DNA of 27,364 nucleotides from a virus: positions 1 to 27,364 of IMG/VR virus record IMGVR_UViG_3300021440_000100. One strand, 5' to 3'. Each line of letters starts with the position of its first letter. Position 1 is the stretch's first letter. Under the pieces are notes generated by a model that was not told where the DNA came from, searched no databases, and worked only from the letters and a program-made list of their open reading frames with translations. A program made the translations under genes and the position numbers. Positions 4,395 to 27,098 of the stretch are shown here, in pieces.

Positions 4395-5960
4395 ATGAAA
4401 CTAATTGACGACATGAAATTTGCGGCGTATTACGCTACGCACATGTTTAATAAATTACCGTCGCGTGTATCTAAGCGCGAGCGGGATCAACGTATCCTGC
4501 AGGCAGGCTTTAAGCGCGGAGAGCGCGCGGGGGTACAGAAAGCCCTGCAGTATTTTCCAGGCGCGTCAAGCGGCGTACTAAATGCCGACTGGTCAAGCAG
4601 CATAAATTCAGCAATAGAAATGATTAGGCAGGATTTCTCCGGGCTATGTGGCCGCAGCGAGCTTGCTTACCGTACGTCTGCAATTGCTAAGCGAGCGGTT
4701 GACGTTTTATCGTATTTTGTAGTCGGCCAGGGCAACCGCCCGTATCCGACTGTACGTGATGCCAACGGTGAGGCGATAGAATCAGTAAATAAAATACTCG
4801 CGGCGGATTGGGAGCGCTTTAATGACCAAAGTATACGCAATGGCACGCAGGATTTAACGGACTACCAGGGCCAGCAGCTTGATTTTAGAACGATAGTAAC
4901 ATACGGCAGCGCGCTTTTTAACCGCGTCGCAAGCCGTAAAGGGTCTTTAAGCCCCTACGCTTTTCAGACTTTAAAGCCATATAGACTCGATTTTAGTAAA
5001 GATACGCTGTTTGGGGCGTACCAAGACCAGCTTAAAAAAGAGCAAATTATACACGGAATTGCTGTAAATGCGTATGGGGAACCGCAGAAATTTTACTTTA
5101 CCGACGGAAATACGTATACACCGGACAACATGCAGCTATGTTTCTACCCGATTGAAGCCGAGCAGTACCTCGGACTCCCCTGGTTGACACCGGTACTACC
5201 ACAAATATGGGATGACCAGCAGCTTTTTGACGATAAACTAAAACAATCCCGTATCGGTGCGCGCCTGGGTTATAAAGTATCCCCACGTGACATCGGAGGG
5301 CTTAATGGCCTACTTGCAACCGATGACGACAGCGGCGAACAGTATCTTGAGCTTGACTTTCAGGGGTTTGTCGGGACAAATGATAAGCCGGAGCCGATAA
5401 GTATCAGCGACCCGATTAAAGATACGTTTAAAGCGCTTGTCGAAATGTCAATGCAGCGTATAGCCATCGGTCTCGGATTCAGCTACCAGTTATTTACATC
5501 CGATTTAAGCGGCGCAAATTTTTCCAGTGCGCGTATGAATACTATAAATGACAACCTGGGCTTCCGTACGCTGTATAAATGGTTTGTGAAAGCCCGCTGT
5601 CAACGTCGATGGGAGCAATTTGTATACAGCGAGGTATTGACAGGGCGACTCGCAAGTGCGGGCGTTACCATGACCGAGTATAACCGGGACCCGTGGATAT
5701 TCAACCAGTGTTTTCATCTGCCAATGGATGGCCAGGAGTGGGTAGATCCGCTTAAAGATATTGAGGCGACGGTATTAGCATATAAAACGGGGCAGATCAC
5801 GTATCAGGAGATATGTAGCCGAACTGGTAAACACTGGCAATCGGTGCTAAAACAGCTCGAAAATGAGAGAAAAGAGATGGAAAATAGGGGTTTAAGTATG
5901 TTTTTACCGGAAAATATTGATAAAAAACAGTCAACCGGAGTCACAAATGAAAATATTTAA
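4395..5960 (+). CDS. portal protein (lambda gpB family)
   Basis: The 521-residue product matches lambda gpB in size (533) and order. Portal proteins form the dodecameric ring at one head vertex through which DNA enters and to which the tail joins. Typical landmarks are an N-terminal helical part with LNADWSSSINSAIEMIRQDF, the SELAYRTSAIAKRAVDVLSY helix (about 94-113), a GQGNRPYP loop, a central segment with FRTIVTYGSALF, and a later SDLSGANFSSARMNT motif (about 372-386). The extreme C-terminus (about 485-521) is charged and possibly flexible. The ATG directly follows the upstream stop. The last 14 bases overlap the start of the protease-capsid gene. Confidence 0.92.
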   Translation: MKLIDDMKFAAYYATHMFNKLPSRVSKRERDQRILQAGFKRGERAGVQKALQYFPGASSGVLNADWSSSINSAIEMIRQDFSGLCGRSELAYRTSAIAKRAVDVLSYFVVGQGNRPYPTVRDANGEAIESVNKILAADWERFNDQSIRNGTQDLTDYQGQQLDFRTIVTYGSALFNRVASRKGSLSPYAFQTLKPYRLDFSKDTLFGAYQDQLKKEQIIHGIAVNAYGEPQKFYFTDGNTYTPDNMQLCFYPIEAEQYLGLPWLTPVLPQIWDDQQLFDDKLKQSRIGARLGYKVSPRDIGGLNGLLATDDDSGEQYLELDFQGFVGTNDKPEPISISDPIKDTFKALVEMSMQRIAIGLGFSYQLFTSDLSGANFSSARMNTINDNLGFRTLYKWFVKARCQRRWEQFVYSEVLTGRLASAGVTMTEYNRDPWIFNQCFHLPMDGQEWVDPLKDIEATVLAYKTGQITYQEICSRTGKHWQSVLKQLENERKEMENRGLSMFLPENIDKKQSTGVTNENI

Positions 5961-8076
5961 TCACAGTAAAAAGACATGGTTTAACGCCAAAAAGACCACA
6001 GATAAGGCGGCTGAGATCGCTTTATATAATGATATCGGTATGTGGGGCGTGCAAACTGAGGATTTTAAGAATGCCCTTGACGGTCTCGGAGAGATTGACG
6101 ACTTGACCATACGTATAAATTCGTACGGTGGCGAGGTTTTCGTAGGATTCGCAATTTACAATTTGATCAATGACCACAAAGCCGCCAATAAAACAATGAT
6201 TGTTGACGGTGTGGCCGCAAGTATCGCGTCGGTGATTGCTCTTGCTGGAACGAAACGTAAAGCGCATAAGAACAGCTACATTATGATACATAACCCGGCG
6301 GTTATGATCGCTGGGGGTTCGGTTGATCTACGTAAAGCGGCGGACGAACTCGACCGGATCAAAGAAACTATTATAACTCTGTACAGAGATAGGGGTGTAA
6401 ATCTCAGCAAAAAGAAACTTGACGAACTTATGACCGTTGAAACATGGTTGACCGCTGAGGATGCCCTAAAGTATGGATTCATTGACGAAATACTTGATAA
6501 TAGCGAGAATGATGAACCAGAAACGAATAGTGCAACGAGACTGCCTGAAAATCTTAAGGCAACTTTTTTAAACCAAACCAAACCCGCCGCACCAGCGGTA
6601 AATAAGGGGGGCGATATGTTAACTTGTCCTAAATGCGGTAAAACGCACGCAGAGGGCGCGGCTTTCTGCAATCATTGCGGTGCGGCGATTACTGCATCCG
6701 CAAAGTCGACCGTCGAGCGCGACGAGCTGCTTAATTATGAGCGCAATCGTATCAAAGCAATTAGTAATCACTGCGGGCTCCTGAAGCTTCCAACCGATTT
6801 TATTCAGTCGCTTATTGATTCAGGGGAAACTCTGGATCAGGCAAGCGAAAAAATTACAAATAAGGTACGTGAGATGCAGGCGGCTACGCCACCGGCTACT
6901 CCGGACGTTACAGTAGCAGTTGACGAGACCGAGAAGTTTCGCAATCATGCGGTAAATTCTCTTGCCGTTGCGGTTGGATCTGAAAAGGACCCCGCAATTA
7001 AGGCAGATATCCGCAAGAATCCTGGACCTGTTGATATCCACGGCCTCGTACGTTCCTGCCTTATCAAGGATGGTATGAATCCGGCTACGGTTATCAATAT
7101 GAGTCCGACTCAGCTTGCAGATGAGGGACTTCGGAGAGCTAAAAATTCCGTAGGTAGCGCGGACCTCCCTGCCATCCTTGCGGACACCATGAACAAAGCG
7201 CTTGTCCTGACCCCGTCGGAAGTCGGAGCAACATTCGATCAGGTCTGTATGGAGGATATGACACCAGATTTTCGTACAAAGTCATACACAAAACTGTCGA
7301 GTTTCTCTGATATCGGGGATTTACCTGAAGGTGCAGCATTTGAGGCCGGGGGTTTTTCTGATAAAAAGGAAAGCGGATCAGTATCAACAAAAGGTAAAGT
7401 CGTTACTCTTACGCGTCGACTTATCGTTGACAACGACACCGGAGTTCTTGCTCAGTTCCCGCGTCGTATGAGTACTGCTGTTTACGGCCGTATGAACCGG
7501 GATTTTTACGACTTGCTTTGTAGCAATGCGCTCGTCGGCCCGACTCTTACCGAGGATAGCAAGGCGCTTTTCCACGCTGACCACAGTAACCTTAAAACCA
7601 GCTCCGGTGTTGTGTCTGTTGCATCTCTTGACGTTGCGGAACAGTATCTTGCATTGCAGAAAATGCCAAAAGCAAATGCCGCAGACAAGGACTCTTTTGT
7701 ATTCGGTGGTATCCGTCAGATACTTTGTGGTACTAATCAGCGTATCGCGGCTTTACAGGTTGTCAGGAGCGCTTTTGATCCAGCGAAGTCAAACAATAAC
7801 GTTTATAACCCGTATAACGGTATTGAGGTTATTTCTGACCCATACCTGCAGAGCCTGTTGACTGCTGGTAGCGCTGCGAATACTTGGTACGGATTTGCGG
7901 ATAAGAATCTCTTCCCGACCGCAACCGTTATCTATTTGTCAGGCGCACGTTCACCGTCATTCCGTAGCGAGGCGAGCGGTGTGGGTGAGGCTCAGGGTAT
8001 CGCGTATGAGATCTCTTTCGATTACGGATTTACCTTCCAGGATTTCCGCGGATTGATCCAGAACGATGGCAAGTAA
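5947..8076 (+). CDS. ClpP protease-scaffold-major capsid fusion
   Basis: A 709-residue polyprotein. I use ATG 5947, since the open frame before it has only an ATT start. Residues 1-185 are a ClpP/S14 protease with Ser92 (GVAAS), His115 (MIHNP) and an acid, probably Glu165 (VETWLTA), where ClpP has Asp. Residues 227-245 form a zinc ribbon (C227, C230, C241, C244). A helical, charged scaffold-like part (about 255-312) and a Pro/Ala linker (314-320) follow. From about 345 on lies the HK97-fold major capsid protein of the Mu gpT-like type, with ALFHADHSNL as a landmark. The protease should cut itself, the scaffold and the capsid part apart during prohead maturation. It replaces separate lambda C, Nu3 and E genes. 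A strong internal start lies at 6616. Confidence 0.9.
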   Translation: MKIFNHSKKTWFNAKKTTDKAAEIALYNDIGMWGVQTEDFKNALDGLGEIDDLTIRINSYGGEVFVGFAIYNLINDHKAANKTMIVDGVAASIASVIALAGTKRKAHKNSYIMIHNPAVMIAGGSVDLRKAADELDRIKETIITLYRDRGVNLSKKKLDELMTVETWLTAEDALKYGFIDEILDNSENDEPETNSATRLPENLKATFLNQTKPAAPAVNKGGDMLTCPKCGKTHAEGAAFCNHCGAAITASAKSTVERDELLNYERNRIKAISNHCGLLKLPTDFIQSLIDSGETLDQASEKITNKVREMQAATPPATPDVTVAVDETEKFRNHAVNSLAVAVGSEKDPAIKADIRKNPGPVDIHGLVRSCLIKDGMNPATVINMSPTQLADEGLRRAKNSVGSADLPAILADTMNKALVLTPSEVGATFDQVCMEDMTPDFRTKSYTKLSSFSDIGDLPEGAAFEAGGFSDKKESGSVSTKGKVVTLTRRLIVDNDTGVLAQFPRRMSTAVYGRMNRDFYDLLCSNALVGPTLTEDSKALFHADHSNLKTSSGVVSVASLDVAEQYLALQKMPKANAADKDSFVFGGIRQILCGTNQRIAALQVVRSAFDPAKSNNNVYNPYNGIEVISDPYLQSLLTAGSAANTWYGFADKNLFPTATVIYLSGARSPSFRSEASGVGEAQGIAYEISFDYGFTFQDFRGLIQNDGK
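6604..6618 (+). promoter_or_regulatory. internal SD and in-frame start in the capsid fusion
   Basis: The sequence TAAGGGGGG (6603-6611) is followed after four bases by an ATG (6616-6618) in frame with the fusion gene (codon 224). The site is as strong as any true SD in the window. The shorter product, 486 residues, would start with the zinc ribbon and hold the scaffold and capsid parts without the protease. Lambda uses the same trick: Nu3 starts inside C. It would let the phage make many capsid chains per protease. Confidence 0.65.
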
Positions 8077-8121: not shown

Positions 8122-8859
8122 ATGATTGGTAAAGTTGAATTAAAGCAGGAGGGGGAGGTAATTCTTTACACTTCCACGTCTGCGACGACAAAAGATACCC
8201 CCATTTATGTAAATGGTTTTGGTGTCTTGATTCCGCAAGCATCCGCCGGGGCAAACGTGCAGAATGCATACCGCCGCTGCGGTTTGTATCGTATCGCTCC
8301 GGCGAACTCAATCGCAGTAACGGTTGGGGCGTTGGTTTTTTATGATTCCGCGGCAGGCCGCGCGGTACTTACACGCCCGACAGCAGGCTTTCTGCTCGGT
8401 GTGGCGGTGACTGCCGGAACCGGTACAACCGCTGGAACGGTAACTGTTGACGTATTGATAAATACGGTTGATGGTGGAAACGGAAATTTCCAGGGGGCGG
8501 ATGTTTACGCTGGACGCGTTATGGAGGTTTATTCCGTTGCGTCAATTGCAGATTCAGCTGTAACATTGACCGCTGCGCAGGTTAAAAACGGTATTGTATC
8601 GCAGACTCCAGGAGCAGCAAGAGCAATCACGTTGCCCGCTGCAGCGGACCTGCTTGCGATTTGTCCGCGCGCCGTTGTCGGGTCAAGCTTTGAGTTGACA
8701 ATTGTCAACCTTGCGGCTAATACGCACGTGCAAACTCTTACTGCGTCGGGTACGTTTACTGTTGTGGGTCTTGCAACCGTGCAGCCTGCAACTAGCGCAA
8801 CGTTCCGTGTTGTATTTTCTGACGTGTCGACCGCCGCATGTGTGGCGTACAGGATCTAA
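8122..8859 (+). CDS. capsid decoration protein (DUF2190-like N-terminus)
   Basis: The 245-residue protein lies directly after the capsid gene with the best SD of the window (AGGAGGTAAAAT). Residues about 1-112 look like a DUF2190 capsid cement protein: repeated short beta strands, a VGALVFYDSAAGR motif, then FLLGVAVTAGTGTTAGTVTVDVLI. Residues about 125-245 form a second beta-rich module (DSAVTLTAAQVKNGIVSQT, then AARAITLPAA and SFELTIVNLAAN) of a type often joined to phage surface proteins. Such proteins bind the outside of the shell and stabilise it after DNA filling. The second module may be the exposed part. It has no transmembrane segment. Confidence 0.75.
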   Translation: MIGKVELKQEGEVILYTSTSATTKDTPIYVNGFGVLIPQASAGANVQNAYRRCGLYRIAPANSIAVTVGALVFYDSAAGRAVLTRPTAGFLLGVAVTAGTGTTAGTVTVDVLINTVDGGNGNFQGADVYAGRVMEVYSVASIADSAVTLTAAQVKNGIVSQTPGAARAITLPAAADLLAICPRAVVGSSFELTIVNLAANTHVQTLTASGTFTVVGLATVQPATSATFRVVFSDVSTAACVAYRI

Positions 8860-24256: not shown

Positions 24257-24454
24257 TCAGATTCCTACCTTTCTTAATATCTCGTCAGCTTTATTTTTCT
24301 GCTTTACAGGATCATATAATGACTCCCTATACGCTATAGCCCGTTTCTCTTTTAGTTTTGCGTACTTAATAGGGTCGTTTTTTATCTTATTGTACAATTT
24401 AGAAGTACGCTCCGAAATAGTCATTGCTCTTTCTCCAATTAATTTTCGTGACAT
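24257..24454 (-). CDS. small basic helical protein, unknown
   Basis: A 65-residue product starting at ATG 24454, with GGGGAG about eight bases upstream. A GTG six codons earlier (24472) lacks a site. It is almost all helix and rich in Lys, Arg and Glu, with a long KIKNDPIKYAKLKEKRAIAY run (about 22-41). The DPIKYAKLKEK pattern is typical of small phage proteins with HNH- or HTH-like repeats (N-x-x-x-Y-x-x-L-K), although no nuclease residues are present. It is the last gene before the terminator. It overlaps the upstream zinc-ribbon gene by 16 bases. Confidence 0.65.
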   Translation of the reverse strand: MSRKLIGERAMTISERTSKLYNKIKNDPIKYAKLKEKRAIAYRESLYDPVKQKNKADEILRKVGI

Positions 24455-24678
24455 TTCATTTTCTCCCCGCACTTAACGCAATACTGATCTCTCCCGCTAC
24501 CACTTTTCCACGTCTCGCCGCACTCGCAGCGGTACTCGGAGCGCGTGTCAATTGGCGCAGCGGGCGGTATTATAGGTATAGACTCTACAACGCGTTCCCA
24601 CGATTCTTGTACCGCCCGCCGTCCAGAATCCCCGTAAATAAATTCCTCCACCCTGTCAACGTCTTCCCTTAGTCCCAT
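24439..24678 (-). CDS. zinc-ribbon protein, unknown
   Basis: A 79-residue protein starting at ATG 24678, with AAGGAG nine bases upstream, inside the polymerase stop region. The first 40 residues are helical and charged (MGLREDVDRVEEFIYG), followed by a Pro-rich linker (SIPIIPPAAPID). The C-terminal 30 residues have CECG ... CVKCG and a final CHEN: a small zinc ribbon with Cys pairs CxC and CxxC. Such proteins often bind nucleic acid or another replication protein. The longer reading of the frame (start at 24726) would lie inside the polymerase gene and has no SD. Function unknown. Confidence 0.7.
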   Translation of the reverse strand: MGLREDVDRVEEFIYGDSGRRAVQESWERVVESIPIIPPAAPIDTRSEYRCECGETWKSGSGRDQYCVKCGEKMKCHEN

Positions 24679-24679
24679 G

Positions 24680-26863
24680 CTATAACTCCTTTTTATAACG
24701 TTTACCGCGCCATCCGCCAGCCGCACGTATCGGCCAGTCTTTACACCATTCGGGCAGCGCGCCCATTAGTTTCTCCATTTCGTCAATCGTCCCCCAGCCC
24801 TCTGGAACCTCGCAACATATTTCGTCATGGACGTGGAGTACTATAGGGTATCCCGCCGAGTCAAGATTTAATAATGCATTCGCGAGTATGTCCCGCGCGG
24901 TAGCCTGTACGATATTTTCTGTCAACTTACCGCCGTAAGTATCTATACGCTCCCAGCCTGTCATGCTATTACCCATAAACGTAAGCTTGCTAACTTCTTT
25001 ACCCCACGGCGTCAACTCCTGATGCAGCCTTGGGTTGTGGTAGTAAAGTATGCGCCCGCTCAATAGCCTCAAGTGCAGTATGTCATTTTGCACCTGAAAT
25101 TTAATACCTTGATACTCAAAGCAATTACCCGGGTATTGTACCGCAAGTTTCGCGCAGTCCTCAATTTTATACCAGAATTGTACGATAGCCGGAGATGCTG
25201 CACGCCACGCTTTAATGCCGTCGCGAATCTCCTGCTCGCTTAGGTATTTATCCGCCCCAAATTGCATCCACGCCCCATAGCCCCCTTGGTAGCCGCTGGC
25301 GAGCTCGGCGACTTTTCCAACCTTCTTGCGCATCGGGTGGTGCTCATTGGTCTCCCGCTTCACGCGCAAAAACTCTTCAAATGGTATCCCCGTAATTTTA
25401 CTCGCCGACATCTCGTAAATCTTACCATGCGTTTTAAATACGTCGATACGCCATTGCTCTCCGGCAAGGCACGCAAGTACAACCGCCTCAATTGCGCTGT
25501 AATCCGAGCATATAAAATCGTATCCAGGCGCGGGTATAAATAATCCGCGTAAAGCCCCGGAAATACTTTCCATTATGTCAGGCCCCGGCGGCCCGCCGGA
25601 TAGAAAAGCATCCGCAAGATCAGGATCACCGCCGGGTAGGTTTTGTGGCTGCGGGCCACGGCCAGCCCAGCGCCCGGTACGATCCGCCCCGTAGTACTGC
25701 AGTATCCAACGGATGCGGTTGTCCATGCAAAGGCGATCCGATATAGAGTACAATTTTTTACATGAGGATAATGATAGTATTTGCCGCAATTCCAGTACCC
25801 TACGCTGCGATGGTGTAATACCGGGTAATGCAAGCGCGCGCTCGACGTTCTCCGCGTCAAGGTTCGCGAGGCCGAGTTTAAGCCAGTCAAGCATTTTAGC
25901 AACCTCACTACCAGTATTTACCGCGCCACCGGTTATATCCTGCAGCTCCTTAACGTACTTAACGGTCTCGCGCTCGTAAATATCTATAAGCCGCTGTAAT
26001 GCCGGTACGTCAATATACACACCACGGTCATTTATGCGCTGGTCAAGCTCCCACACTTTTTGCTCGAACGGTATGAGCGGGGGGAGTTTAGACATTGCCT
26101 CTACTTCAGCGTCAACGTCGCGTATATTATATTCGTAAAATTTCGGCCCGTCTATTGGGTCGAGGCGTGGGTCGTTACGACCTATCACCCGAAAAGGTTC
26201 GGGTGGGTCTATGACTACCTCAAATCCGGGCGGTATCGTACGCGATTTTAGAAAAGCTATGCAACCATCGCGTGTACTTTTATACCCAATAATATGAGGA
26301 AATCTATACCCCGGGAAGTTTACTTTATCCCCTAGTTTAAATTTCCTTAGTGGCGATGGAGATATACGTATTATATTATTAACCTGTGATAGAACCCAGT
26401 CCCTTTCTTTTTTACCCTGTTGTGGTACACTAAACTTATTTATAAGCCGCTTACCGTCCTTTAATTTTTCATGCGTCAATTTAAGTACCGCCCCGGCTTT
26501 CTCCAGTGACCCAGGAAGTCCGTAAACGCGAGCGAGCACCGACGGATCGACAAATTGACCTAATGGTATACGCCCTCGTGATATACCGTATTCAAAGGGG
26601 CTATTCCATGCAGCTACTTTTTCCCTGCGAGCTATTGCATCCCACAGGTCCTTCGGCTCTGGCATCCCTTCAATCCATAGCTGCGTGGGGCCGTCATTAA
26701 TTTTGTAAGCGAGGGAGAGTATACGAGTGCTTGGGTGCTCGGCGTAAACCGCGGAGCCCACTATTTCTATACCGGATTTTCCTTTACGTATAGGATGCGG
26801 TTTTCCGTCAGGCCCCGTATAATACCCGACCTCGCTGTAGGTCTCATAGTCAATGTGGATCAT
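24680..26863 (-). CDS. DNA polymerase, family A, with 3'-5' exonuclease
   Basis: The phage replicative polymerase, 727 residues from ATG 26863 (a GTG at 26875 adds four). Numbering from the GTG, exonuclease residues are Asp9 and Glu11 (HIDYETYSE), a WNSPFEYG block (90-97; Glu95 where most have Asp) and YNIRDVDAE (249-257). The polymerase has Y-x-ADRTGRWAGRGPQPQNLP (about 395-414), motif A SDYSAIEA (Asp458), motif B RKKVGKVAELASGYQGG (516-532) and motif C HVHDEI (Asp684). An added segment of about 70 residues (171-243) lies between exonuclease motifs. ATG 26863 overlaps the stop of an 11-codon micro-ORF. It is the core gene of the leftward operon. Confidence 0.95.
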   Translation of the reverse strand: MIHIDYETYSEVGYYTGPDGKPHPIRKGKSGIEIVGSAVYAEHPSTRILSLAYKINDGPTQLWIEGMPEPKDLWDAIARREKVAAWNSPFEYGISRGRIPLGQFVDPSVLARVYGLPGSLEKAGAVLKLTHEKLKDGKRLINKFSVPQQGKKERDWVLSQVNNIIRISPSPLRKFKLGDKVNFPGYRFPHIIGYKSTRDGCIAFLKSRTIPPGFEVVIDPPEPFRVIGRNDPRLDPIDGPKFYEYNIRDVDAEVEAMSKLPPLIPFEQKVWELDQRINDRGVYIDVPALQRLIDIYERETVKYVKELQDITGGAVNTGSEVAKMLDWLKLGLANLDAENVERALALPGITPSQRRVLELRQILSLSSCKKLYSISDRLCMDNRIRWILQYYGADRTGRWAGRGPQPQNLPGGDPDLADAFLSGGPPGPDIMESISGALRGLFIPAPGYDFICSDYSAIEAVVLACLAGEQWRIDVFKTHGKIYEMSASKITGIPFEEFLRVKRETNEHHPMRKKVGKVAELASGYQGGYGAWMQFGADKYLSEQEIRDGIKAWRAASPAIVQFWYKIEDCAKLAVQYPGNCFEYQGIKFQVQNDILHLRLLSGRILYYHNPRLHQELTPWGKEVSKLTFMGNSMTGWERIDTYGGKLTENIVQATARDILANALLNLDSAGYPIVLHVHDEICCEVPEGWGTIDEMEKLMGALPEWCKDWPIRAAGGWRGKRYKKEL

Positions 26864-26895
26864 AGTATCATCCACGCTATCATAGTTTTAATCAT
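26860..26895 (-). CDS. 11-codon coupled micro-ORF before polymerase
   Basis: ATG at 26895 to TGA at 26862-26860 encodes MIKTMIAWMIL. It has a strong SD (AAGGGGGGAG, 26909-26900) four bases upstream, whereas the polymerase start has only a weak GGA. Its ATG overlaps the stop of the upstream gene (ATGA, 26895-26892) and its TGA overlaps the polymerase ATG (ATGA, 26863-26860). It is too short for gene finders. Its likely use is translational coupling that sets polymerase level, although the peptide is hydrophobic and could be a product itself. Support is from the sequence layout alone. Confidence 0.5.
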   Translation of the reverse strand: MIKTMIAWMIL

Positions 26896-27098
26896 AACAC
26901 TCCCCCCTTATGTGCCAACTCAAGCAGCTGCTTACCTAAATCCGATGAGGCTTTTATAGATATATAATACCCGTCGTCGCATACCCCATGCTCTACAATA
27001 TTTTTTACGTCTACCTCGATATTTATAGTATCATCGTAGCAATCATAGTACACGTGCTCATTGTCATCTGATAGCACTATAGTTGATTTAGTTGACAT
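26892..27098 (-). CDS. small acidic protein, unknown
   Basis: A 68-residue acidic protein with the start supported by GGAGGT at 27113-27108. It is beta-rich with many Asp, Tyr and Val (HVYYDCYDDTINIEVDVKNI) and closes with a helix (SSDLGKQLLELAHKGG). Small acidic proteins like this are common in phage early regions. Some inhibit host or defence enzymes, but nothing here shows that. Its last codons AAG GGG GGA GTG hold the SD of the micro-ORF, and its TGA overlaps that ORF's ATG. It overlaps the upstream gene by 11 bases. Confidence 0.75.
   Translation of the reverse strand: MSTKSTIVLSDDNEHVYYDCYDDTINIEVDVKNIVEHGVCDDGYYISIKASSDLGKQLLELAHKGGVL

Follow-up and report, generated by a model that had tools for sequence, protein, structure and literature searches.

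In phage lambda, the scaffold protein Nu3 is translated from within the protease gene C, in the same frame and in excess over the protease, and the capsid protein is encoded separately. An in-frame scaffold start inside a protease gene is also known in Mu and has been proposed, with a Shine-Dalgarno sequence, in PaMx73 (PMC4378225). Fused capsid genes have been treated as single proteins (PMC6536676; PMC8601537). The tripartite ones are puzzling, since a protease for every one of the hundreds of subunits in a shell should be superfluous. An internal start in these fusions was not found reported in the literature searched, the original Gifsy-2 description being outside this search, and none of the annotations met in this analysis shows an enzyme-free shell product.

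The window analysed here is the whole 27,364-nucleotide stretch (positions 1 to 27,364) of the IMG/VR virus record IMGVR_UViG_3300021440_000100. It contains a full-length ORF of 709 residues at 5947-8076 (+), which encodes a ClpP-like prohead protease, a scaffold and a major capsid protein in one fusion. The ORF begins within the last bases of the portal gene, whose stop is at 5960; a TTG at 5917 is also readable as the 5' end, with ATG 5947 the likelier full-length start. The next gene downstream, at 8122-8859 (+), encodes a decoration (cement) protein (Pfam Phage_cement_2, E = 6e-7). The domain order and both neighbours, portal upstream and decoration protein downstream, are shared with the tripartite gene of Gifsy-2 and NF045540. 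NF045540 is the best NCBIfam match of the long ORF (E = 1e-108, residues 22-707), but the protein misses the curated whole-protein cut-off (364.7 bits versus 475), so it is a divergent relative and not a formal member; it also differs in carrying a zinc ribbon.

The N-terminal ClpP-like protease domain (residues 1-186; 5947-6504, +) is identified by Pfam CLP_protease at residues 44-185, by the ClpP-type head protease model NF045542 (172.7 bits versus a cut-off of 120), by AlphaFold2 and by Foldseek; the Clp_rel_HeadMat score is above its cut-off. By analogy with ClpP, residues S92, H115 and E165 form a putative triad; S92 and H115 are invariant across 35 relatives, and an acidic residue (E or D) stands at position 165 in 148 of 152. 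In the AlphaFold2 model (alignment of 35 sequences, with the ribbon relative L327 left out; mean pLDDT 84), the protease extends to around residue 186 and is followed by a predicted disordered linker at residues 187-222 (6505-6612, +; pLDDT < 50), the ribbon from about residue 223, a helical region at residues 255-357 (6709-7017, +) and then the capsid domain. The helices span residues 255-278, 283-292, 296-312, 327-342 and 349-357, and the region appears scaffold-like by analogy with Gifsy-2 and the HK97 delta domain. The major capsid domain lies at the C-terminus of the same ORF as the protease (residues 394-705; 7126-8061, +; Phage_capsid_4, 113.5 bits versus 27, E = 2.7e-32). With the full model, ClpP alone is found among the Foldseek matches listed; the capsid fold assignment rests on Pfam.

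Inside this gene, an in-frame ATG at 6616-6618 (+) forms codon 224, and the Shine-Dalgarno sequence TAAGGGGGG lies 4 bases 5' of it at 6603-6611 (+): TAA occupies 6603-6605, GGGGGG 6606-6611 and CGAT 6612-6615. The sequence-only reading had proposed a strong in-frame start at this codon, right before the zinc ribbon, and the letters at 6603-6618 bear this out. When the 14 bases at -17 to -4 of all 788 ATGs on both strands of the window are paired with the anti-Shine-Dalgarno sequence ACCUCCUUA, a simple model that predicts initiation only roughly, ATG 6616 ranks joint first with a duplex energy of -11.8 kcal/mol, compared with -6.1 for the full-length start at 5947 and -11.6 for the decoration gene at 8122. 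Local RNA structure at the site is not significant (z -1.2), and local folding possibly pairs part of the G run. Since the linker that is predicted to be disordered ends here in the AlphaFold2 model, the internal start would sit at a domain boundary. The nested ORF (6616-8076, +) would encode 486 residues, comprising the zinc ribbon, scaffold and capsid without the protease. This resembles lambda C/Nu3, Mu I/Z and PaMx73 in that a scaffold start lies in frame within the protease gene, and the latter two also in its Shine-Dalgarno sequence; in the window the site falls at the junction of protease and scaffold. On the other hand, the nested product of Mu and PaMx73 is scaffold only, with a separate major head protein. 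The nested ORF of the window contains the capsid domain, and the inclusion of the capsid protein itself in the predicted inner product is what sets it apart from the lambda- and Mu-type nested genes.

The tie at -11.8 is with a minus-strand ATG at 26895 that opens a frame of only 11 codons. One strong site is thus no proof of a start, and the proof is comparative, drawn from the sequences of relatives. This second site is an exact TAAGGGGGG-N6-ATG at 26893-26910 (-), with a pairing energy equal to that of the 6616 site; its ATG runs into the stop codon of a small ORF (26892-27098), and shortly downstream comes a DNA polymerase-like ORF with GTG 26875 as its start. The pair may serve a downstream start or be a product of chance.

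For the comparison, 348 ClpP-type fusion ORFs were extracted from alignment-based scans of viral contigs, one scan of bacterial genomes and several phage records. They were dereplicated to 151 genes, which lowers but does not abolish kinship among the sequences, and at least three of the 151 (L007, L009 and L206) are S78-type genes. The linker was bounded by alignment, from the protease end to the conserved scaffold residue Arg268. An in-frame linker ATG with a Shine-Dalgarno sequence at dG <= -6 is present in 108 of the 151 genes, compared with 6.5 in same-length downstream windows of the same genes; in about 30% of the genes the pairing is no better than weak (dG above -6). ATGs as such are not enriched in the linkers (175 versus 225 expected); what is enriched is their placement behind a Shine-Dalgarno sequence. 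Where the linker past the protease holds a single ATG (71 genes), this ATG reaches dG <= -5 in 67 and <= -6 in 51, compared to 50 and 17 of the 801 other in-frame ATGs of these genes, and their base profile shows an AGGA peak at -11 to -8 with G rare immediately 5' of the peak. In class A, the 115 genes without the enterobacterial motif described below, 83 genes have their strongest in-frame ATG from mid-protease to gene end at the linker site (12.1 expected). This site outscores every candidate for the full-length start in 81 genes of the class and scores lower in 32. Eight dereplicated non-fused ClpP head protease genes show no consistent internal start, so in this small sample the feature does not extend to every ClpP head protease. 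In one relative (L200:2923-4984), the protease and the scaffold-capsid part occupy two overlapping frames with the break near the end of the protease domain, which reflects either a sequencing error or a real frame change.

A Shine-Dalgarno-like run between protease and scaffold could merely pause ribosomes while the protease folds, with no initiation, and its position at a domain boundary agrees with this. However, start codons occur at initiation distance behind it in far more genes than after permutation of the linker codons with the ATGs held in place (mean 17.8, maximum 29 in 200 runs), and they keep the reading frame, the other two frames giving 7 and 2. In addition, of the few genes that lack a good ATG, two (L239 and L291) have GTG instead of ATG at the same place, behind AAGGAG or AAAGGAG, so that a start codon is retained. 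We consider pausing quite improbable.

It is slightly harder still to credit that the K/Q-E-x-x-M pattern is a feature of the protein, such as a self-cleavage site between protease and scaffold, with the Shine-Dalgarno sequence as a by-product of its codons. Such a linker does have to be cut somehow, and position -4 is often K, Q or E and position -3 often E. But shuffling synonymous codons within each gene gives a mean of 54.6 and a maximum of 68 against the 108 observed. A stricter set gives the same picture, with 58 of 80 genes against 9.4 (maximum 18) for permuted and 27.7 (maximum 38) for synonymous codons, 500 shuffles each; its counts exceed every synonymous shuffle at dG <= -5, -6 and -7, but not at -8 (22 versus a maximum of 23). 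At positions -4 and -3, GAG encodes 51 of 61 Glu (p = 3e-8), GGA 5 of 9 Gly (p = 7e-5) and AGG or AGA 3 of 3 Arg (p = 2e-4), with AAG and CAG leaning the same way without significance, and the preference for GAG and GGA is limited to this site. Moreover, the encoded residues differ (GGD, GEN, EVD, GDT, GGT) while the Shine-Dalgarno sequence is constant, and the GTG of L239 and L291 replaces the Met by Val in the long protein. These sequence patterns point to selection on the site at the nucleotide level, beyond the encoded residues.

Another finding is that the same junction start occurs behind an unrelated protease. In the S78-type fusions (NF045541), whose scaffold-capsid half is homologous to that of the window and whose protease is unrelated, without a ribbon, 29 of 42 genes have the site at dG <= -6, versus 4.8 (maximum 11) for permuted and 13.2 (maximum 19) for synonymous codons. 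Across the roughly 190 related genes of both protease types compared in all, the internal start is kept in most. That the site is a disused relic of a once separate scaffold-capsid gene recently fused to a protease is scarcely credible: this half is indeed found behind two unrelated proteases and the ribbon follows the Met immediately as at a genuine N-terminus, but the fusion is old and diverse (relatives are 26-43% identical to the window) and still keeps its Shine-Dalgarno sequence against synonymous drift. Internal initiation is thus the preferred reading; the site, its strength, its family-wide conservation at the domain junction and its nucleotide-level selection can be read directly in the genes.

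Several named phages added later match in site position, although some have a stronger site elsewhere in the gene: RcDormio Met214 and RcKemmy Met215 (-5.6), LPPA33 Met213 (-7.6) and phage S1 Met207 (-6.6), the last coinciding with L424 of the set. For cultured phages, internal starts are predicted from sequence at Met214 of Rhodobacter phage RcDormio, Met207 of Stenotrophomonas phage S1 and Met190 of Bordetella phage PBb001, and more tentatively at Met221 of Gifsy-2, an earlier Met with conserved residues around it. Gifsy-2 belongs, together with mEp213-like phages, to an enterobacterial and related group of 36 genes with an RxxEFxxMP-like motif, in which the ATG lies earlier and the Shine-Dalgarno sequence is weaker and more distant. 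At -6, this group gives 26 versus 11.9 for synonymous shuffles (maximum 19); however, the site has conserved amino acids and stronger sites sometimes occur elsewhere in the gene, which leaves an internal start in this group uncertain. Enterobacterial and Pseudomonas fusions (L006:3484, L005:3469, L004:3478) also have a strong Shine-Dalgarno/ATG pair at an ETWM motif of the protease domain, with -11.4 in phage Solano, -9.3 in LLS and -8.7 in Gifsy-2. It is a rival start for these fusions and is probably residue driven.

The zinc ribbon (residues 224-247; 6616-6687, +), a CPKCG...CNHCG segment with Cys 227, 230, 241 and 244, comes directly after ATG 6616. Zn_Ribbon_1 (PF13240) matches residues 227-247 with a score of 27.9 in the full protein and 32.7 in the fragment, compared to a gathering score of 25; the CPxCG...FCxHCG pattern is common to both, and in the window the ribbon forms the N-terminus of a capsid scaffold. 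Single-protein scans of IMG/VR gave no close relatives of the window, and the ribbon relatives (L090/L324, L091, L325/L326 and L327) came from the alignment-based scans. Their best segments are 35-42% identical to the window, with 41-43% over the full alignment for the first two, and all four Cys are invariant in the two closest. The ribbon is present in only five lineages (7 loci) among the 348 fusion ORFs. In all five, the ATG and a Shine-Dalgarno sequence stand 1-3 codons ahead of the first Cys, the other four lineages having AAGGAGAAAATATTATG, AAGGAAGTGGATATG, AGAGGAGACACTATG and AAGGAGGAACCATG. Over the Shine-Dalgarno sequence the window encodes KGGD and the others QGEN, KEVD, RGDT and QGGT; identity among the lineages is about 10% (ungapped) over the 24 residues before the Met and 55% in the ribbon core.

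The sequence-only reading had tied the start to the ribbon, and this does not hold: judging from the genes compared, the ribbon is confined to this clade and the internal start is not. The ribbon was accordingly rejected as the cause of the start, which most relatives have without it. The same reading had also proposed a second, protease-free product from codon 224, which gains support from the family-wide nucleotide selection, and had asked whether ribbon-keeping relatives lose the ATG or Shine-Dalgarno sequence; no loss is seen, and the five lineages keep both through different residues. In this clade the ribbon most likely serves as a small, zinc-stabilised cap at the N-terminus of the scaffold that is used only during assembly. 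It precedes the capsid domain and is probably cut off at maturation, so a role in assembly is more probable than one in the mature shell. The portal, the protease and DNA were put forward by the sequence-only reading as possible binding partners of the ribbon. In three relatives without a ribbon (L099, L100 and L328), a small helical segment conserved among them, M-x-x-x-LRALLERLGLSK, takes its place directly behind the internal Met, so the inner product seemingly accepts exchangeable small domains at its N-terminus. Elsewhere in the window, a 95-residue ORF at 24439-24726 (-), which adjoins the polymerase-like ORF, ends in a zinc-ribbon-like CEC...CVKCG.

Based on the results presented above, one message very probably yields two in-frame proteins from a gene nested inside the protease-scaffold-capsid fusion. 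Initiation at 5947 would give the protease-scaffold-capsid polypeptide, and we infer that ribosomes also initiate at the stronger site, 6616, producing a scaffold-capsid protein that begins with the zinc ribbon and lacks the protease. The short product would form the bulk of the shell, its excess being suggested by the strength of the internal site relative to the full-length starts in class A. Some full-length chains would co-assemble and bring the protease inside the procapsid, where it would later remove the scaffold, the ribbon and itself. The parallel to Nu3 within C that had been drawn for the window is apt in its logic, and a nested start is a plausible answer to the stoichiometry of the single-gene design.

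In general, the conserved second start offers a simple and testable answer to the question of one protease per subunit, and ties these fusions to lambda and Mu. In this large family, where two products are likely, annotations give just one. It is likely that an unannotated nested gene is general in the protease-scaffold-capsid fusions of tailed phages, across many proteobacterial and other hosts and two unrelated protease types; it would set the share of protease-bearing subunits, and a capsid that appears to be built from a single polypeptide would in fact be a two-protein system.
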